Shown: positions 196-41,654 of the stretch, one piece after another
How the letters are laid out: each line of letters starts with the position of its first letter
How positions within the stretch are numbered: position 1 is the first letter of the stretch
IMG/VR virus record: IMGVR_UViG_3300009788_000174
Coordinates: 1-41,654 of that record
Reading direction: 5' to 3' (one strand)
DNA: 41,654 nucleotides
DNA from: a virus
The notes under the pieces: model-generated
Databases searched by the model: none
What the model was told of the DNA's origin: nothing
What the model saw: only the letters and a program-made list of their open reading frames with translations
Made by a program: the position numbers and the translations under genes

Positions 196-867
196 TTACC
201 GTTCACGACCACTCGCTTCATCATCCTTGTTGACGAGCTTCTGTTCCGACCCAATCGGATTCTTGAATTCCGCGATGGTTTTCGCCATCAACTCTGGGTC
301 AGGCAATGCGTGTGGTGTCGAGCAAGGCGAGCACTTAGCACTGTGCCATGTGAACTCAGTGTTCCGTAGAAGCTCACACGTAAGAGTGGCAGCTTCACCA
401 ATGAACGACTTCATTATGGCGGACTCACGACGAAGGCTCTTGTTGCCCATCAGGAATAGGGCAAACTCCTTCACACTTGGAATCCAGATAAGGTATTCCA
501 ACCCGGCTAGGTTGCCACGTTTGCCTTGCTTGGCTTTGGCCAAGATAGTGGCAAACTCTTTCGACGCAAAGTCATAATACGAAACAGGCGTGTCAGCAAG
601 GATCGTTGCTCGCGGTCGTGCGGCGAAATTCAAAACGTCGCATACCTTGGTAAGATCAACGATCTTCTCACTGCTGTGGTAAAGGCCGAGGTGACCAAGC
701 GGGAACTTGCCTTCTTTGACAATATTCGTATCCGCCCTGTACACCCGGAGTTGGGGTAGGAAATCTGACGTCGTGGTAAGGGTGTCAAGTTCACCCTCCA
801 TTGCGTCGGCAGGAGCCAATCCAAGATCAGCCAAAGGGATCAATGGTGCTTTCGTTTCTTCGGACAT
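196..867 (-). CDS. Conserved phage protein of unknown function
   Basis: A 223-residue soluble protein. After an acidic N-terminus it has a core running from FLPQLRVY (about residue 37) through EKIVDLTKVCDVLNFAARPRA, YLIWIPS and FALFLMGNKS, to a C-terminus with PCSTPHALPDPELM. From memory, this layout (FLPRL at the start, a PxA/DxxV strand, F-x-F-x-G-x-K-S in the middle) is seen in conserved phage proteins next to replication genes, some of which are suspected DNA-binding proteins; no catalytic motif is visible. The start is supported by GAGAG upstream. The gene has its own leader: a hairpin at 910-942 separates it from the ParB-like gene, and a GTTAAGATTAAC site lies at 890-901, 23 bases before the ATG. 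Confidence 0.7.
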   Translation of the reverse strand: MSEETKAPLIPLADLGLAPADAMEGELDTLTTTSDFLPQLRVYRADTNIVKEGKFPLGHLGLYHSSEKIVDLTKVCDVLNFAARPRATILADTPVSYYDFASKEFATILAKAKQGKRGNLAGLEYLIWIPSVKEFALFLMGNKSLRRESAIMKSFIGEAATLTCELLRNTEFTWHSAKCSPCSTPHALPDPELMAKTIAEFKNPIGSEQKLVNKDDEASGRER

Positions 868-987: not shown

Positions 988-1995
988 CTAGTCGAGGTCG
1001 GATTCTTTCGCGTCCGGGTCGCCTTTGACAGCGGCGTCTGCTTCGGTCTGAAGCTCGGCGGCTTTCTCGGCGGCTTCCTTGGCACGCTTCTTTTTCCGCT
1101 CAACTTTGTTGGCTTCCTTTTTCCGTGCCAACTCGGCCTTACGCTCGTCATCTTGGGCTTGCTGGAATTCCACACCCATGGGATCGAGGGTGAGGCCCCA
1201 CTTCAGGGCGAGGGTGAAGATTTCGACAGGATCGGATGCACCGGCGTCGGAAATAATAACCGGGGCTGCCGCTCTGTGGGCAATTTCATCCTCGAAAGTC
1301 TTCCGGCTCTTGAGCATTGGGACGGGTGCAAACTCGGCAGGGCCAGCCGCACGACCCTCACGCTTTGCATCGCGAAGCTCCTTCACCCGGCCTGCTACGA
1401 CCGTGGCAAAGTTCTGGGGTGTCTCACCGAGAGCACGATCGACGTAATCGTCTTGCTCTTCCTCTGGCAACTTTGCCAAAGAGTAGGCGTTGGACAGACC
1501 GATGTCGCCCGAGTCCACGTAAGCCTGAATCTTCTCGTTGAGCTTGAGCAGTCCCATTCGCTCACTGATCCAAGAAGAAGTCTTGGCAAGCTTGGTCGCC
1601 AGTTCGGCCCGCGTCATCATCGGATTCTCTTGGAGAATCTTAACAAGAGCCTTCGAGTATTCGACCGGCTTTGTTTCGATCTTGTGGACGTTGGCAATGA
1701 CCTGAGCTTCGAGAAGCTCGGCATCGGACAGTGTGATAACCTGAGCAGGAATCGTTTCCTTACCCGCGTCCTTGCTCGCAGTGAAACGCTGGAGTCCGTC
1801 GACCAAACCGTAGACGATCTCGCCCGTCTCGGGGTCCTTGACTTCGCGAACACTGATCGAACTGATGACGCCTTTCAACTTGATAGAATCAACAAGACCG
1901 AGGTATTTCTCAGTCGTCCGATCGCACTTGCGAAGCGACTCGTCCGGTTCGCGAATCTCAGCAAGCGGAATGTGAAGAAGAAGTGTTTCTGACAT
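988..1995 (-). CDS. ParB-like N-terminal domain / helix-turn-helix protein
   Basis: A 335-residue ParB/KorB-type protein. Residues about 5-100 form the ParB N-terminal fold: IPLAEIREPDESLR, then KGVISSISVREV, the diagnostic GLVDGLQRF (the G-x-R/Q-R-F box) and AQVI. Residues about 110-190 carry the central helix-turn-helix region (MTRAELATKLAKTSSWISERMGLL, then IGLSNAYSLAKLP). The C-terminus is Lys/Ala/Glu-rich and probably coiled-coil. Family members bind DNA palindromes and act in plasmid or phage partition or in repression; which applies here is unknown. AAGGAG is correctly spaced before the ATG. The leader contains two GTCAAGCTTAAC sites and starts at the divergent promoter at 2131-2159, so autoregulation is plausible. 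No ParA ATPase is visible. A second ParB-like protein lies at 35511-36884. Confidence 0.85.
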   Translation of the reverse strand: MSETLLLHIPLAEIREPDESLRKCDRTTEKYLGLVDSIKLKGVISSISVREVKDPETGEIVYGLVDGLQRFTASKDAGKETIPAQVITLSDAELLEAQVIANVHKIETKPVEYSKALVKILQENPMMTRAELATKLAKTSSWISERMGLLKLNEKIQAYVDSGDIGLSNAYSLAKLPEEEQDDYVDRALGETPQNFATVVAGRVKELRDAKREGRAAGPAEFAPVPMLKSRKTFEDEIAHRAAAPVIISDAGASDPVEIFTLALKWGLTLDPMGVEFQQAQDDERKAELARKKEANKVERKKKRAKEAAEKAAELQTEADAAVKGDPDAKESDLD

Positions 1996-2067: not shown

Positions 2068-2130
2068 AAATAATGAAAAGTGGTTGCAATCCAAACCTTG
2101 CACATGAAGGGAAGACCCTTTCTATACCCT

Positions 2131-2159
2131 ATTATAGCACAATCGAGCCAAAATAACAA
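2131..2159 (-). promoter_or_regulatory. Sigma70-type promoter toward the ParB-like gene
   Basis: On the minus strand: TTGTTA, 17 bases, TATAAT, inside a 32-base segment that is an almost exact inverted copy of the forward promoter at 2328-2356. The spacer ends in ATTGTGC, shared with the opposite promoter. It drives leftward transcription of 988-1995. Confidence 0.8.
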
Positions 2160-2223
2160 CCAGAAAATGAGAAACCCCAAACCAGGATAGTGCATAGTAT
2201 AAGGAATAGATTCGGCTGGTCGC

Positions 2224-2326
2224 CTGACTGCTTACAACCTGTTTCTATACCTCTATAACCTATTTCTATCCTACCCTAAATTAGACCCTATAGAGGAAGT
2301 ATAGAAAAACGCTTGTGGTCAGTCAG
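2224..2326. repeat. About 105-bp repeat with internal dyad, copy 1
   Basis: The segment between the divergent promoters begins CTGACTGCTTAC and ends in a 41-base block (2286-2326) that matches 38415-38455 with few changes (CCCTATAGAGGAAGTA ... TTGTGGTCAGTCAG). Within it TTTCTATACCTCTATA and TATAGAGGAAGTATAGAAA form an interrupted inverted repeat. The same arrangement exists in copy 2 at 38351-38455. It is probably a protein-binding or origin-like element; no function is proven. Confidence 0.6.
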
Positions 2327-2327
2327 G

Positions 2328-2356
2328 TTGTTATTTTGGCCCGATTGTGCTATAAT
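2328..2356 (+). promoter_or_regulatory. Sigma70-type promoter of the primase operon
   Basis: TTGTTA, 17 bases, TATAAT, followed by AG. The predicted start is near 2363, giving a leader of roughly 105 bases before the primase start. It is the inverted partner of 2131-2159, and the promoter at 33412-33440 shares its TTGTGCTATAATAG end. Confidence 0.82.
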
Positions 2357-2366
2357 AGAGTGGACA

Positions 2367-2450
2367 AGTACACCCTTCGGGGACGTACCAAAGTTTGCAT
2401 TGCAAACGGTTTTCATGTTAAGATTAACAATGGTCATTGTTAAGCTTAAC
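2367..2450 (+). promoter_or_regulatory. Leader with two hairpins and two GTTAAG dyads
   Basis: After the promoter comes a small hairpin (ACCC-TTCG-GGG, flanked by GTAC on both sides). Next is a second hairpin (GTTTGCA at 2393-2399 with TGCAAAC at 2401-2407) followed by TTTTC, then GTTAAGATTAAC at 2417-2428 and the perfect palindrome GTTAAGCTTAAC at 2439-2450, centres 22 bp apart. The leftward leader repeats this order (hairpin with a TCTT loop, then AAGGTTTGGATTGCAACC, TTTTCAT, dyads). The conserved order suggests an attenuator plus operator pair. Confidence 0.55.
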
Positions 2451-2469
2451 AATACTTTCGGAGGTGGTA

Positions 2470-5187
2470 ATGTTAACAAAGCGTGAAGCAATCAAGAATT
2501 TCTTGACGGCCAGCACTCACACAGACCTGGCCAGTCTGTACACACCAGACATGGAAGTCCAGGTTAATGTGGCACAGGGCGACGGTGAGCGTACAGAGGG
2601 TGAGTACAAAGGAAAGATGTGGCACGGGTGGACGGACGGTGTCACTACGTGGAAGTCCTTTCGTGTCCCATTTAGTGCTATGTCGAAACCACATTATAAA
2701 GACTCCCGTATAACGTGGGATTTAGGGGTGCATGCCGAGGGAATCGGTATGACTGGTTGGGACTGGAAAGCCAAAGTTTCTCGGTGGGTAGCTTACGACT
2801 TCGACGCTTTAGTTGGTGACCAACACAGAGGGACTGGTCTCAGTCCTGAAGAACTTAACAAGATTCAGGAGGCTGTTAATGACGTTCCTTGGGTTGAAGT
2901 TAGAAAGAGTACGTCGGGCAACGGACTCCATCTCTATGTCTTCCTTGACCCGGTCATCCCTACCATCAACCATAATGAGCACGCCGCCCTCTCGCGTGCA
3001 GTTCTCGGAGTCCTCGCCGCAATCACAGGATTCAATTTCGAGAATAAGGTCGACATTTGTGGGGGAAACATGTGGGTCTGGCATCGAAAAATGCGAGGCA
3101 CAGATGGTCTCACAGTTATTAAAGAAGCAAAGCCATTTGCAGATGTCCCGCCTACATGGCGAGATCATGTCAAGGTTATCAGCGGACAAAGTCGACGAGT
3201 CGTCCCACAAGAAATCGCGGACAACCCAGAGATGTCCGAGACTGATCGAATGCTGGCTGAACTCACAGGACAGCATATTAAAGAGACACTTGATTCGGAG
3301 CATAAGCGTCTCATTACGTTTCTCCGGGAGCATGATTGCATGTGGTGGTGGGATCAAGACGCCAACATGCTTGTCACGCATACCTTCCACCTTCGAGAAG
3401 CCCATGAAGCTTTAAAGTTGAAAGGTCCTTTCAGAACTGCCGCTACAGGTAGTATGCGTGGGCACGATCATAATTGTTTTCTATACCCGCTACGTAAGGG
3501 TGGGTGGGTCGTGCGTAGGTTTGCACCTGGGTGTAGTGAGCACGAGAGTTGGGACCAGGACGGTTCAGGTTGGACACGTTGTTATCTCAACGTAGACCCA
3601 GACCTTTCCCTGGCCGCACGTAGTCATGAAGGTATTGAGCATAAGACTGGCGGCTATGTTTTTACTCACGCCACGGATGGCCAAAAGGCAGCTAAGTCTT
3701 TGGGTGCAAATATGGAACTACCAGACTTTATGCTTGGTAGGCGTACCAAGCTTAAAACACATAAGGACGGCCGGTTAATTGTTGAAGTCGACAAAGATGC
3801 ATCTGACCCACCTGATAGGATGCATGGTTGGCTACCTGAAACTAAGACATGGACCAAAATCTTTGGTGTCAGTCAAACAAGTCTTCGTGATGATGAACGA
3901 ACTGATTACGATGATTTAGTTCGTCATATTGTGAACGAGCGACATGAAGATGCTGGTTGGGCTATTAAGACTGCTAGTAAGTGGACACAAGAGCCGCTTG
4001 CCCATGTTAAGCTTGTCTTGAAGAGTATGGGCCTCATAGACCGGGATTGTAATAGTGTCCTTGGTGGTAGTATTACCAAGAGATGGACGATTGTCAACAA
4101 ACCGTTTCAGCCTGAGTACCCTGGTGATCGTGAATGGAATCGTGATGCTTGCCAGCTAAAGTTCCACCCGAACAAAGGTGAGAATCTATCCTACCCAACA
4201 TGGTCTATGATACTAAGACATGTCGGTGCTGACCTAGATACATACATTGAAGCCCACCCATGGTGCCGTGAGAACGGCATTGTAACAGGGGCAGACTATC
4301 TGAAATGCTGGGTCGCATCTGTCTTCCAGTTCCCAACAGAACCACTCCCTTACTTGTTCATGTACGGACCTGAGGCTAGTGGTAAGTCCACCTTCCATGA
4401 AGCACTCAAGCTGCTAATCAGTCAGCGTGGATATGCTCTTGCGGCACAGGCACTTGTCTCACAACAGGGTTTCAATAATGAGTTAAAGAACGCTGTTCTT
4501 TGCGTCGTTGAAGAAACAAATGTATCTGGTAAAAGTAAGATGGCGTACAATCGAATTAAGGACTGGGTAACATCACCATTGATGTCGATCCACCCCAAAG
4601 GCGGAACACCATTCCTTTCTGTTAATACTACCCACTGGATTCATTGTACAAATGACCGGAGCTATTGTCCTCTCTTCCCTGGTGATACACGTATCACAGT
4701 AATTTATGTCGAGAAGGTATCAGAGAGTGCATTCCAAAATAAGCAGGAGATGGTTCGTAAGTTAATTAAAGAAGCCCCTGATTTTCTAGGGGCCATCATG
4801 TCTTTGGATATACCACGTAGTCCTGAGCGGCTTAACATACCGATCATTCAGACTAGTGACAAGATCATGGGGCAACAGCAGAACATGAGTTCACTTGAGT
4901 CGTTCATTGATGAACGATGTTATGAAGTTCCAGGCTATACAATTAAGTTCTCTGAATTCCACTCTGAACTTATCAAGTGGCTTGACCCATCTGAAGTCAT
5001 GGATTGGACAAAGATTGCTACAGGAAAATCATTACCTCGAAAGTTCTGTAAAGGCAGGGCTAAAGCAGACGGTCAATTCCATATTGGTAATATCTCTTGG
5101 GAACCGGCCGAACAATGTGAAAAGAGACTAACCTTATTCGTTAATGCACAAAACAAACTCACGGCAAGGGGAGAGAATAATGTCTGA
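2470..5187 (+). CDS. Primase-polymerase / SF3 helicase replication protein
   Basis: A 905-residue replication protein that would open, prime and unwind phage DNA. The N-terminal 250 residues resemble archaeo-eukaryotic primases: an acidic YDFD near residue 108 (metal site) and STSGNGLHLYVF near 147 (the S/G-x-G-x-H motif). A middle region carries a winged-helix-like stretch. The C-terminal third is a D5/SF3-type ATPase: Walker A GPEASGKST near 633, Walker B AVLCVVEET near 679, a sensor-like WIHCTND and an arginine-finger candidate in GDTRITVI. The ATG at 2470 is chosen because GGAGGTGGTA precedes it; the in-frame codon at 2437 lies on the operator. It is the first gene of the operon under the promoter at 2328-2356, and its stop overlaps the next gene by 8 bases. 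No separate DNA polymerase is seen, so the host enzyme may be used. Confidence 0.9.
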   Translation: MLTKREAIKNFLTASTHTDLASLYTPDMEVQVNVAQGDGERTEGEYKGKMWHGWTDGVTTWKSFRVPFSAMSKPHYKDSRITWDLGVHAEGIGMTGWDWKAKVSRWVAYDFDALVGDQHRGTGLSPEELNKIQEAVNDVPWVEVRKSTSGNGLHLYVFLDPVIPTINHNEHAALSRAVLGVLAAITGFNFENKVDICGGNMWVWHRKMRGTDGLTVIKEAKPFADVPPTWRDHVKVISGQSRRVVPQEIADNPEMSETDRMLAELTGQHIKETLDSEHKRLITFLREHDCMWWWDQDANMLVTHTFHLREAHEALKLKGPFRTAATGSMRGHDHNCFLYPLRKGGWVVRRFAPGCSEHESWDQDGSGWTRCYLNVDPDLSLAARSHEGIEHKTGGYVFTHATDGQKAAKSLGANMELPDFMLGRRTKLKTHKDGRLIVEVDKDASDPPDRMHGWLPETKTWTKIFGVSQTSLRDDERTDYDDLVRHIVNERHEDAGWAIKTASKWTQEPLAHVKLVLKSMGLIDRDCNSVLGGSITKRWTIVNKPFQPEYPGDREWNRDACQLKFHPNKGENLSYPTWSMILRHVGADLDTYIEAHPWCRENGIVTGADYLKCWVASVFQFPTEPLPYLFMYGPEASGKSTFHEALKLLISQRGYALAAQALVSQQGFNNELKNAVLCVVEETNVSGKSKMAYNRIKDWVTSPLMSIHPKGGTPFLSVNTTHWIHCTNDRSYCPLFPGDTRITVIYVEKVSESAFQNKQEMVRKLIKEAPDFLGAIMSLDIPRSPERLNIPIIQTSDKIMGQQQNMSSLESFIDERCYEVPGYTIKFSEFHSELIKWLDPSEVMDWTKIATGKSLPRKFCKGRAKADGQFHIGNISWEPAEQCEKRLTLFVNAQNKLTARGENNV

Positions 5188-5758
5188 AATGGGTAACACT
5201 AAGCTTGATGATTGGGGGCGTCTACCTGGCCATGAGCATTATGACGTCGATCCCGCAAAACTAACTAAAGCTGGGGAAATCGCATTTGAACTCCGCAATC
5301 TACCACTAAGGTCGCCGGCAGTACAAGAAGTATTTGATCGTCTTCACAGAGGCGAGAAGCCACCGGAACAGAAGGCCATGCGATCAAACAGCGGCAAGCC
5401 GTTGATGCATTATATTCTACACTATCCACGTACTGTTGAACTGCTGGCACGTATCCTAGAGTGTGGCGAACATAAGTACGAGTACATGAACTGGAAGAAA
5501 GGTAACAATACTGATGCCAGTTATCTTGACGCGTGTCTGCGTCACCTAATGCACTTTGTGGATGGGGAGACCCACGACAAAGAGTACAGAACCCACCACC
5601 TTGGTCATGCGATTTGGAATCTTATGACTATGTTTGAATTCAATGACCACGACATCCTTGTAAGTAAGGAAGAGTTTGACGCGGCCATTGTTAAGCTTGA
5701 CAAACTCAAAGAGGAGAGAGAACGTGCCAAAGAACAGCATGATACACCTGAACGGTAA
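5180..5758 (+). CDS. Phage dATP/dGTP diphosphohydrolase-like protein (DUF5664 type)
   Basis: A 192-residue protein. The core, from about residue 70, reads KPLMHYILHYPRTVELLARILECGEHKYEYMNWKKG, then YLDACLRHLMHFVDGE and LGHAIWNLMTMFEF. It is an all-helical pattern (YP..ve.la.vle.G..KY...NW, then LLRHLM.f..GE, then h..hA..n) of a phage family labelled dATP/dGTP diphosphohydrolase N-terminal or DUF5664. If the activity holds, it would act on purine deoxynucleotides and reshape the pool during infection, alongside ThyX and dUTPase in this window. The assignment is from remembered family pattern and the chemistry is not proven. The start at 5180 follows GGGGAGAGAATA; the gene overlaps its neighbours on both sides, a sign of translational coupling. 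Confidence 0.65.
   Translation: MSEMGNTKLDDWGRLPGHEHYDVDPAKLTKAGEIAFELRNLPLRSPAVQEVFDRLHRGEKPPEQKAMRSNSGKPLMHYILHYPRTVELLARILECGEHKYEYMNWKKGNNTDASYLDACLRHLMHFVDGETHDKEYRTHHLGHAIWNLMTMFEFNDHDILVSKEEFDAAIVKLDKLKEERERAKEQHDTPER
5690..5701. promoter_or_regulatory. GTTAAGCTTGAC dyad upstream of the exonuclease
   Basis: A one-mismatch copy of the 12-bp site, inside the end of 5180-5758 and 22 bases before the GTG start of the exonuclease at 5724. That is the same distance class as at other gene starts, so it may be functional although it lies in coding sequence. Confidence 0.4.
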
Positions 5759-10800: not shown

Positions 10801-10896
10801 ACCATCTACAGCCCACTGAACCTCGACAATACAAACGGATTCTGAGCCGTGTGAATTTGTGAGCCTCTCTGACATTACAGGACTAAGGGTTTTCAT
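7882..10896 (-). CDS. Large tail hub / tail-tip protein
   Basis: A 1004-residue protein, the largest tail gene after the tape measure. Residues 1-about 200 are beta-rich and resemble the baseplate-hub start (SIEGKILSVSTMESVV, a short PCRIFQW region). Residues about 210-400 form an Ala/Glu-rich helical insertion likely to be coiled-coil (AEVAAAAVIKS, AERAALEAVKEQQEEY). Residues about 410-800 return to a beta-domain with phage hub features (NTVDIMTWMIDKYTDLSWD, FALFDRMNIMQALEEIAFQARCAVW). A Gly-rich hinge follows near 835-860, then a 140-residue tail. It starts at an ATGA overlap with the preceding gene. The place after the tape measure and the size support a J/gp17-like central tip protein. 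Confidence 0.78.
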   Translation of the reverse strand: MKTLSPVMSERLTNSHGSESVCIVEVQWAVDGQWHQYADKDIPGSNIEGKILSVSTMESVVKMDSQGRSQGISMELADSDGTLKHIINYNDVHGRPCRIFQWMEGIPLAEKFLLFEGEITSPTIWKEGSRSLHFEVITKLADKEIGFSPEEGDFTYIPEDLIGKAWPLVFGMCQNVPAVALQEVPIAETAESLGVIDPYIDERLNELNRYGDSMGSTAYINIASRDEMMDLMNEAKDYAEVAAAAVIKSTSDTNAWLALVQARRAIINNIRKTITLSEEGSDISTLKAELIDAWESINLAIDGYNLAAEALQHNTETYQYWANLYDQRYASYQMLAAAVMDALAASVHPDGGDSDFMNSRSELDEERAALEAVKEQQEEYQASEFKVVNGAFFPQNEYIELRIDHIVVGGQFDGDTFTITKRVVTDFSSGLADAYGFTFLQAGSRIRVNSNIHVTYIANILPSAVHHVKAFKTINGLERLMTVPSSYYTVRHVDLVGYTVTSITLDQPLNFYDSEWADDIYVTQTSPVGPNTVDIMTWMIDKYTDLSWDTTSFNYVKAMIENYPSNFALFDRMNIMQALEEIAFQARCAVWISDNTFFIKYLAEQLSEVDTVTESDIAVETMEVITTRAEELVTKFVAQWTDDYAKDKPYDLVLRHNVKKYGLHERTFDFYIYNFGELVLKSATFWLIRKANIWKQIRFKTYLHKLYLESFDTVKFDFNQNFIADSDVAALVTDVTYDSASMELQVEAWVPVRSGEMEPYIYAWPSQIDPANYFPTDEEIASGFAGGDGPGVEVEGGSTIVDNQMSDWYERNSGISGGYGGGGAGGGSGGGGGSTGSARAGGGTNHDSGDLKPSDIDDVKPEGKYYAGDPSDGDRPPNSIYPGRGDYSEATEPIDETSLPGYSEGELTHAQYIAMVQEALDAVGGGGSGATYPGRIASGSGSLYAVDIYKNGIGGETETVTAYQVQIAGGVDLPVGTGVMVSKQTWMVDDVAQTQYTMQVAVWI

Positions 10897-12023
10897 TGTA
10901 GCTCTACCTCAAACTGTAGGGTAACATAATGCTTATCGGGCCCAGCGTCCGCAAGCTCTGATGCAGGGGTCAATATCAAAGCTTTCCATACTCTTGATTC
11001 AAAGTCTATGATTCTTATTTCTTGGCCTAATGTTACATCCAGGAAATTGAGAAGTGCAACTCTTTGAACGTCAGTGAGAGTCCCGATCTTGTAATCTAGT
11101 TTCTGGATGCTGGGCCAACTCTCATCACGATAGATGTCAAGCTTACCACCGCGAGTTTTTCGATTGATACGCTGGTGGGTGAACATCTCTTGGTTGTTGA
11201 ACTCTGGGTTCCTCAGTTCGATGATAAGGGTAGGAGCGTTGAATGGGTATGATAGCTGGGTACTGGATCTGTGGACTAGGACAGGGGCCCTGGGCCATTC
11301 ACTCTTATCCGGTATTAAGGCACTGGCTGCTTGCGTGAATGTCAGTGTGTTCCCCACCGACAAGCTACGGACGACAGAACAACCGATTACTTGGGTGAAG
11401 GACAGTAGACTGCTGGTCGGCTTAGTGACCTCAGCGACGGCAGTGTGAGTGAAGTAAAGCCACTGCTTAACGTGTTCACCCGACGCTGTTGTAATCACAC
11501 TATGTGATAGGTGTAGGTGATTACTTACTGAGAGCGGAATTACACGAGCAGCTTGATGTGAGAACGAAAGGTAACTTGTAACTGCCAAGTTAATGACGTT
11601 CGACGCTAGTGTTGCTGATTGCGTGAAGTCTAATGTACTTGAAACGGACAAGTAGATAGGCCGACGAACTTCAACACTCTGAGAGAAGCTAAGTTGGTTA
11701 CCCGCAGAGAGGGCAGTGATATTGCTTCTTGCATTCTGTGAGAATGCTAGTGTGTTCCCGACACTTAGAGATATTGGGCGAGTGATATGAACATTCTGAC
11801 TAAAAGCCAGAGTGTTACTTGCTGACAGGTAGTAGATGTTGTTAACATCAACAGATTGAGAGAAAGTGAGAGTATCTTCAACAGAGAGATACTTATAATC
11901 AGACTCCGGACTCTGAGCGAACGCTAACGTACTTGACACAGCTATCGCCCACGTTTTATTGTAGGTTACAGACTGTGAAAAGGTTAGCGTATTCTCTGCT
12001 GAGTGACGTAGTTTCTTCGGCAT
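10893..12023 (-). CDS. Solenoid-repeat protein A with C-terminal tail domain
   Basis: A 376-residue protein. Residues about 8-265 contain twelve repeats of roughly 20 residues, consensus [VA]-x-[NS]-[TH]-L-x-[FL]-[ST]-[QH]-x-[VA], for example AENTLTFSQSV, ASNTLAFSQNV and VGNTLTFTQAA. The regular spacing and alternating hydrophobic/polar pattern suggest a beta-solenoid or fibre. The last 110 residues form a separate domain (SWPSIQKLDYKIG, LLNFLDVTLGQEIRIIDF, VWKALIL). The paralogue at 22918-24030 has the same plan. The ATG at 12023 follows GAGGG with five bases between; a hairpin and a GTTAAGATTACC site lie just upstream. It is probably a virion fibre or tail-tip component; I know no named family. 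Confidence 0.75.
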   Translation of the reverse strand: MPKKLRHSAENTLTFSQSVTYNKTWAIAVSSTLAFAQSPESDYKYLSVEDTLTFSQSVDVNNIYYLSASNTLAFSQNVHITRPISLSVGNTLAFSQNARSNITALSAGNQLSFSQSVEVRRPIYLSVSSTLDFTQSATLASNVINLAVTSYLSFSHQAARVIPLSVSNHLHLSHSVITTASGEHVKQWLYFTHTAVAEVTKPTSSLLSFTQVIGCSVVRSLSVGNTLTFTQAASALIPDKSEWPRAPVLVHRSSTQLSYPFNAPTLIIELRNPEFNNQEMFTHQRINRKTRGGKLDIYRDESWPSIQKLDYKIGTLTDVQRVALLNFLDVTLGQEIRIIDFESRVWKALILTPASELADAGPDKHYVTLQFEVELQ

Positions 12024-12037
12024 CACTACCCTCTATT

Positions 12038-12076
12038 GTTAAGATTACCCAGAGCCCACCCAAGTGGATGGGCTCT
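12038..12076 (-). promoter_or_regulatory. Hairpin plus GTTAAGATTACC site upstream of 10893-12023
   Basis: AGAGCCCA at 12051-12058 pairs with TGGGCTCT at 12069-12076, just after the stop of 12089-12616. The dyad copy GTTAAGATTACC at 12038-12049 directly follows, 15 bases before the start of the repeat protein. The hairpin has no T-run, so termination there is doubtful. The hairpin-site-gene order recurs at 20119-20171 and 37243-37292. Confidence 0.5.
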
Positions 12077-20106: not shown

Positions 20107-20118
20107 ATTTGGAACCTT

Positions 20119-20130
20119 GTTAAGCTTAAC
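20119..20130. promoter_or_regulatory. Perfect GTTAAGCTTAAC palindrome upstream of the neck gene
   Basis: An exact 12-bp palindrome, one of two perfect copies I located (the other is at 2439-2450). It sits between the capsid-gene terminator hairpin and the start of 19618-20106. Confidence 0.6.
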
Positions 20131-20139
20131 CAACAAAAG

Positions 20140-21606: not shown

Positions 21607-22464
21607 TTAGTTTTTACCTTTCACTAGGGTAGTCGGATCAACACCGGGATTTTCCTTACGCCACTTCATATAGGCGGCAGGGTCCTTCAGTGAATCAACC
21701 GTCACATTGCGACCGCTGCCACTACCCGCACCATTGGTGGAACCAAATCCACCAGTGCCCGGATTCGTGAAGAGATTACCAAATCGCTCTGGTAGTTCCT
21801 TCATACGTTTGAGGGCATCCTCAGGTTTGAGTGTCAGCATGGTCGGATTGCCGTCGTCGTCTACATCGACGAACTTAACCAACGGCTCGTATTCCCCAGT
21901 AGGTTGTCCTGCTTCATTAAGGACCTCCCCCAGGTAGGTTTTTGGGCCGAGAATGTCCATGATCTGCTCATTGACTTCGACCTTGGCCGCTGTGGCCGCA
22001 TCCAGTATCGAACGATTGATACGTTCGGCACTGTAGTTACTTTGCCAAGTGTCTCGCTCTTTGGTAAGCTTATCAAGCTCTTTCGCATGGGCGACTTGAG
22101 CCTTCTTCGAGTTCCTCTTGACAATTTCTTCTTGCGTCATAGATTGCTCTTGGAGCTTCTCCAGACGCTCTTCCAGGTCTCCCCGCTCAGTAGCGGTCAT
22201 CGTTGCCTGCTCTTTGAGTGTGTTAAGCTCACCCAGCAGTGTTTCGTTTTGCTTCGACACAGTCCGGCGGTTCTCAGCCATCATGGAATTCAGCTTCTCT
22301 TGGGTAAGAGTGATCTCACCCTTCTTCGCCGTAGCTTCGGCTTCAGCTTTCGCCGCCGCAGTTGCAGTAGCCTCAGCGGTTGCAGCAGCCTCAGCGGCAG
22401 CCGCATCACTGGCGTCATCATAGACGAGGCGGAACGGCGAACTTCTCAACATGGAAAACAACAT
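21607..22464 (-). CDS. Capsid scaffolding protein
   Basis: A 285-residue protein directly before the capsid gene. It begins MLFSMLRSSPFRLVYDD, then an Ala/Glu-rich segment (AEATATAAAKAEAEATAKK) and a long coiled-coil (KLNSMMAENRRTVSKQNETL, ERLEKLQEQSMTQEEIV, about residues 50-150). A conserved part follows (DILGPKTYLGEVLN, EPLVKFVDVDDDGN), and the C-terminus is Gly/Asn-rich with a final basic stretch. These are the usual features of phage scaffolds, which direct coat assembly and then leave the head. GGAG is seven bases before the ATG. Confidence 0.86.
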   Translation of the reverse strand: MLFSMLRSSPFRLVYDDASDAAAAEAAATAEATATAAAKAEAEATAKKGEITLTQEKLNSMMAENRRTVSKQNETLLGELNTLKEQATMTATERGDLEERLEKLQEQSMTQEEIVKRNSKKAQVAHAKELDKLTKERDTWQSNYSAERINRSILDAATAAKVEVNEQIMDILGPKTYLGEVLNEAGQPTGEYEPLVKFVDVDDDGNPTMLTLKPEDALKRMKELPERFGNLFTNPGTGGFGSTNGAGSGSGRNVTVDSLKDPAAYMKWRKENPGVDPTTLVKGKN

Positions 22465-41106: not shown

Positions 41107-41654
41107 TAGACCTTACCCCTTTCCTTGACGTACCCATCCCATCTCTTAACACCACACTTGGGACATGGCCCAGGTTTCTCTGTCCCTTGCACTATGGTAT
41201 GACCACACTGATTGCATGTCCACTTAGCGAATCGCGACTCATAACTGCCATCACCCATAGCTTGCAGATCTGCGAAGATAGCTGGGGCTTGCTTCTTAAC
41301 AGTCCCGGCAATGGATCGAAAGACCTGTTGAATCTCTACCTCTGCATGTGGCGACGTGCGTTGCACAATCATGTGCCTCAGTGCCCTTGCATTAGCGGTG
41401 AAGATGATGTTGGTACTGATACCCATCGGTGCTATCCTACGTATCAGCGACGTCATCTGCTTCTTCAATGCGAACGACTTGTCAGTGTTGTCCTCAATGA
41501 GCAGCTTGTTAAGGGTAACAATAGCCTCCCTTATATCGGCCACCGCACCATCGATGACACCCCGAGGTAACCTGTCTAACTCATCCTTCGTAGGCATAAT
41601 GAGCCGTAGATCCTGCAATCTGACGTATCGGAGCGACTCTTGGGAATAGGCACA
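41106..41654 (-). CDS. thyX: FAD-dependent thymidylate synthase with C-terminal zinc ribbon (5' end missing)
   Basis: The frame is open to the right edge, so the N-terminus lies outside; 182 residues are visible. The first visible residues, CAYSQESLRYV, match the ThyX S-x-R-Y region. The following NARALRHMIVQRTSPHAEVE, continuing IQQV (visible residues 88-111), is the ThyX C-terminal signature (N-A-R ... R ... A-x-x-E-I). ThyX makes dTMP from dUMP with FAD and folate. The last about 45 residues add a zinc ribbon (CNQCGHTIVQGT ... CPKCG), an extension not usual for ThyX. It heads the visible part of the dut operon, supplying dTMP from dUTPase product. Confidence 0.9.
   Translation of the reverse strand, partial: CAYSQESLRYVRLQDLRLIMPTKDELDRLPRGVIDGAVADIREAIVTLNKLLIEDNTDKSFALKKQMTSLIRRIAPMGISTNIIFTANARALRHMIVQRTSPHAEVEIQQVFRSIAGTVKKQAPAIFADLQAMGDGSYESRFAKWTCNQCGHTIVQGTEKPGPCPKCGVKRWDGYVKERGKV

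Follow-up and report, generated by a model that had tools for sequence, protein, structure and literature searches.

What do two opposed promoters, each followed by the same palindrome, control when they lie between a gene for a ParB-like protein and a replication operon? In the window, by which we mean the whole 41,654 nt of viral DNA analysed here, such a region separates parB (988-1995, minus strand) from a primase/helicase gene (2470-5187, plus strand; DUF5906, PF19263 9.6e-14; PHROG DNA primase), with which the rightward replication operon begins. Between the two genes lies a 39-nt inverted repeat whose arms (2126-2164 and 2323-2361) are 92% complementary; its 33-nt core is identical at 32 of 33 positions and scores 30, compared with a best of 12 among 20 dinucleotide shuffles. 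Each arm carries an outward TTGTTA-17-TATAAT promoter with TG preceding the -10, the left arm on the minus strand toward parB at 2159-2131 (TTGTTA 2159-2154, TATAAT 2136-2131) and the right arm on the plus strand toward the primase gene at 2328-2356 (TTGTTA 2328-2333, TATAAT 2351-2356), and this promoter block is present in just two copies in the whole window. Downstream of the -10 the two leaders are homologous: their local score is 23, to which the dyads described below contribute part, and 500 shuffles averaged 9.3 and never exceeded 17. A preliminary description of this locus had proposed the opposed promoters in inverted copies, the similarity extending into both leaders, and a ParB-like protein (PF02195 and PF17762) on one side with the replication operon on the other, and all three proposals held. 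Its statement that this is not a usual phage operator set also stands, as the locus is flanked by ParB and primase, carries no CI/Cro pair and does not have the two antagonistic repressors on overlapping operators of the lambda-type OL/OR arrangement. When the control region was compared at the DNA level with known phages, no relative emerged.

Exploring the leaders, we found two TTGTYAAGMTTAACAA dyads in each, at the positions given in the preliminary description. Sequence matching placed TTGTCAAGCTTAACAT (2014-2029) and TTGTCAAGCTTAACAA (2054-2069) in the parB leader and ATGTTAAGATTAACAA (2415-2430) in the primase leader, where it is accompanied by the perfect dyad TTGTTAAGCTTAACAA (2437-2452), the top-scoring site of the genome. 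Relative to the predicted start point of each leader, these operators are placed about 50-110 nt downstream, and a fifth, weaker dyad, GTGGTAATGTTAACAA (2464-2479), overlaps the primase start codon and keeps its position in the relatives G001 and L007. Given that the same operator lies downstream of both promoters, one protein would repress both, and we favor co-repression over the two-state genetic switch, or toggle, that had been suggested for this region. The small leader hairpin that had been described was regular on the right side (2393-2407, plus strand; GTTTGC-ATT-GCAAAC followed by the T-rich GGTTTTCAT), while its left counterpart was less regular; L005 and L007 carry a similar element, TTTGCATTGCAA-CC-GCTTTTTATTG. 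As a candidate second dispersed operator TTTGCATTGCAA was rejected, its genome-wide matches being near background (8 compared with 4.1 expected) with no clear enrichment. Both leaders fold better than their shuffles (z -2.7 and -2.4), largely due to the dyads pairing with each other; an RNA attenuator is not favored as the main mechanism. The intergenic region also holds the word CTGACTG (2224-2230) and its partner GTCAGTCA (2318-2325), common to the intergenic regions of most relatives. In 9 of the 14 genomes these words lie within the repeat arms or in the interval separating them (26 occurrences in the 14 intergenic regions compared with 1.7 expected); they are independent of the dyad type and represent a possible origin or initiator site.

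The dyads had been treated as a local feature, but they are part of an array that covers the genome and numbers about 80 sites. Allowing up to 3 mismatches, TTGTTAAGCTTAACAA occurs 23 times in 41.6 kb compared with 0.19 expected, and a cross-validated symmetric weight matrix (TGnTAAnnTTAnCA;.TG.TAA..TTA.CA.) detects 78 sites, spanning 647-41521, compared with 5 in the reversed sequence. Training the matrix on half of the genome yielded 43 and 37 sites in the opposite half, compared with 2 and 4, respectively. TGnTA-N4-TAnCA occurs 30 times, with 0-4 occurrences at other spacings, and the real half-site ranks first against 180 permuted half-sites, whose median is 0. Scanned with the window's matrix, seven other sequences gave 0-3 sites each: lambda, N15, two phages that encode ParB, and three distant relatives. 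Because the sites within coding sequence strongly favor one codon phase (53 of 66), we used synonymous codon shuffling, which left 9.6 +/- 3.4 coding sites compared with the 63 present. A blind palindrome search using all 5-mer half-sites returned the leader operator as the top motif in the window and nothing in the lambda control; the same search in N15 recovered the four SopB sites, whose sequences match oligonucleotides in PMC7205306. Operators restricted to the leaders are ruled out by the genome-wide count, codon bias as the origin of the sites by synonymous shuffling, and a general excess of palindromes by the permuted half-sites, the shifted spacings and the lambda control. The sequence thus shows a selected array of ~80 sites across the whole genome, in which the leader operators score highest.

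The array sites are spaced nearly at random, about 1 per 530 nt, are not strand-oriented and are mostly intragenic, with a modest non-coding excess (18% compared with 9%, p = 0.01). Away from the control region they include TAGTTAAGATTAACAA (888-903), just upstream of ORF 196-867 (minus strand), TTGTTAAGCTTGACAA (5688-5703) within the replication operon, TTGTTAAGATTACCCA (12036-12051), just upstream of ORF 10893-12026 (minus strand), TTGTTAAGCTTAACCA (20117-20132), TTGGTAAGCTTATCAA (22061-22076) within the scaffold-protein gene, and TTGTTAAGGGTAACAA (41506-41521) at the far end of the record. A second repeated palindrome, GGCCCWGGGCC, is present in six copies (33590, 33751, 33861, 33992, 11286 and 38753) compared with about 0.03 expected; four of the copies fall within about 400 nt in a gene-poor stretch.

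IMG/VR contains relatives of both the primase and ParB. Nearly all of them keep parB and primase divergent with a long inverted repeat between; in L008 this repeat scores no better than shuffles, and in some others it is weak. The preliminary description had made its reading depend on related phages sharing the paired layout, and they retain it. The two repeat arms of one genome are 86-97% alike, and the similarity falls to about 40-82% when arms of different genomes are compared, indicating that they evolve in concert, or are kept alike, and are not the record of one old duplication; what stands of the inverted duplication that had been proposed is the similarity of the arms within each genome. 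The flanking dyads vary by lineage, and each lineage's dyad is dispersed again in its own genome: TGATAn4TATCA in G009 (206 matrix sites in 94 kb), GATTn4AATC in G003 (90 sites), TGATAAATTTATCA in G011 (63 sites), and the window's own motif in G001 (40 sites) and L007 (23 sites in 6.7 kb). The synonymous-shuffle test revealed an array excess in nine genomes, smaller in G005 and G006, and the blind search placed a form of the leader operator at or near the top in G001, G003, G005, G006, G007, G009 and G013. By matrix and blind palindrome searches the arrays were weak or undetected in G010, G012, G014, L061 and L063; for G010 a first, more relaxed motif iteration drifted and was excluded from the results. 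In the close relatives G001 and L007 five sites within the primase gene hold their position, and lineages with different motifs share no site positions apart from weak pairs. Judged from these genomes, the array is selected, conserved in most relatives and divergent in its motif.

Several observations were made alongside. The same half-sites occur with a spacer one base longer, N5 compared with N4, in G006 relative to G009 (TGATA) and in G012 relative to G003 (GATT), which suggests that dimer spacing evolves too. At 53996-54123 G011 carries eight CTAGATTTCTAG palindromes within 140 nt, with a motif different from that of its dispersed array, and this cluster may be centromere- or origin-like. 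Two ParB-encoding phages with an integrase, L070 (phage Aval) and L071 (VarioGold), have 4 and 6 dispersed GTGCA-N6-TGCAC palindromes, respectively, possibly the sites of their own ParB. Five of the seven MAG relatives are titled Planctomycetota or lineages within it, a lead on the host only; the source is a tailed phage of an uncultivated clade, with a possible host among the Planctomycetota.

The candidate binder adjacent to the dyads, ParB1 (988-1995, minus strand), consists of ParB_N, HTH_ParB and a long C-terminal helix (PF02195 3.7e-11; PF17762 2.8e-10), and its AlphaFold model (pLDDT 84) matches the folds of Noc, Caulobacter ParB on parS, and KorB (8qa9, TMt 0.71). Like the members of the ParB/Noc/KorB family it has a ParB_N CTPase-like fold followed by HTH_ParB, and its sequence carries the NTP-binding P motif GxxR as defined in PMC12704722. 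All aligned ParB1 members have DGLQR or DGLHR, with R70 invariant. ParB1 carries GLQR for GERR and A-N for E-N, an alanine replacing the glutamate before the asparagine; the asparagine, which we take to be the equivalent of KorB N146, is retained. With GLQR and A-N in place of GERR and E-N, CTP binding and clamp closure by ParB1 are uncertain. KorB, which carries GARR and not GERR, still hydrolyses CTP (PMC11790492). The recognition helix of ParB1 follows the dyad type (KT[STP][SA]W with TAA, KS[TP]QW with GATT and QSPAW with GATA), a correlation that is confounded by phylogeny and that G012 (KSPAW with a GATT-like motif) fits poorly. The differences fall in the specificity stretch that contacts parS (GKSR in Caulobacter), where residue 173 helps set ParB/Noc specificity (PMC7383237). 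A second paralogue, ParB2 (about 280 aa), lies 4-8 kb from ParB1 in G002, G003 and G005-G013; it has the canonical GxRR and E-N motifs, its helix likewise varies with the motif group, and it is absent from the present record, which is possibly a fragment. Among 14 records, many of them fragments and including contigs of 94, 73, 70 and 68 kb, neither the cognate ParA ATPase of a ParABS system (PF13614) nor a tyrosine integrase (PF00589) was found, and the ParA-binding motif defined in PMC12704722 was not seen in ParB1.

From these features we infer a binder, a mode of repression, a clamp and a purpose. It is fairly probable that a ParB-family protein autoregulates, co-represses replication through the leaders, loads at the dispersed sites and coats or silences the phage genome, with no ParA-driven partition. 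The twin promoters of the inverted repeat would drive parB leftward and the primase and replication operon rightward. The palindromes would be bound most simply by the adjacent ParB1, and ParB2, present in most relatives, could also be the binder. At the leaders the bound protein would lower both transcripts, coupling ParB autoregulation to replication control, and at the dispersed sites it would load, possibly as a CTP-gated clamp like KorB. KorB/OB of plasmid RK2 (IncP-1) is similar in that a ParB-family repressor, to which the fold of ParB1 matches, acts on one palindromic 16-bp operator and controls replication genes, and the dyads in both leaders reproduce the KorB-type position of the operator near its own and the replication promoters. 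Unlike RK2, the system described here belongs to a phage and has about 80-200 sites per genome, mostly intragenic, no ParA (IncC) was found, no KorA equivalent was identified, and the P motif is GLQR compared with GARR in KorB. Noc/NBS of Bacillus, Noc being among the best sequence and fold matches of ParB1, likewise combines a ParA-less ParB paralogue with 16-bp palindromes at many places, but serves chromosomal nucleoid occlusion via membrane binding and has a far lower site density. We also put forward, tentatively and as something that may well prove otherwise, chromatin-like self-coating, in which an orphan ParB without ParA would load about every 0.5 kb at lineage-specific palindromes carried genome-wide and would coat, silence or mark its own DNA, each lineage having a new palindrome as an identity or immunity group.

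The sites could also be stoperators, the elongation roadblocks of a lysogeny repressor known from cluster A mycobacteriophages, with the motif divergence marking immunity groups. Cluster A genomes, like those studied here, have many sites per genome and subgroup-specific motifs, which in cluster A co-vary with the repressor (PMC6550527; PMC9283540). However, as compared via the papers, the L5 stoperators are 13 bp long, asymmetric, mostly oriented one way with transcription and bound by a monomeric non-ParB repressor, whereas the sites found here are palindromic, denser, mostly intragenic and unoriented, the central TG and CA being balanced along the genes of G009 (58 and 54). Stoperators are for these reasons rather improbable. 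The KorB clamp loads at its operator and acts at a distance (PMC11790492), and this, together with the balanced orientation of the sites, is why we favor an orphan ParB that coats or silences the genome. A dispersed centromere, by which a plasmid-like prophage would be partitioned with a ParA from the host or encoded off the record, appears less probable still. It would agree with the ParB family, with the lack of a tyrosine integrase in the 14 records and with phage N15, whose ParB likewise has several dispersed palindromes; N15, however, has 4 SopB sites and a neighbouring ParA, whereas tens to hundreds of sites are found here, 80-200 sites far exceed partition needs, and neither ParA in the 14 records nor a ParA-binding motif in ParB1 was seen.

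That ParB2 and not ParB1 binds the array, ParB1 being an adaptor or local regulator, is unlikely, although of these alternatives we give it the most weight: ParB2 keeps the canonical motifs, varies in its helix by motif group and occurs in most relatives, yet the strongest sites flank parB1 itself, and G014, with a single ParB match, also has no clear array. Least probable is that the region acts mainly as a replication origin, with the dyads or the GTCAGTCA repeats that lie between the promoters serving as binding sites for the primase/helicase or for a different initiator. The adjoining primase/helicase gene, the AT-rich centre and the CTGACTG/GTCAGTCA words, present in 9 of the 14 intergenic regions, are consistent with an origin. 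The dyads, however, are genome-wide and not clustered, and they differ in sequence from lineage to lineage, whereas the GTCAGTCA word is retained; the operators and an origin could also exist side by side.

ParB-like proteins of the orphan type are already known from phages and plasmids (PMC12704722), and in the searched literature, which was covered in part, no comparable array is described. Such orphan ParB proteins are common in phages, and most have no assigned function. In the present case the sequence reveals the likely targets of one of them, in many relatives and with a different palindrome in each, which makes these phages a naturally occurring collection of paired protein and site variants in which to follow how ParB specificity evolves. 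The system would also offer a direct test of whether a ParB is able, in the absence of ParA, to silence or coat an entire genome.
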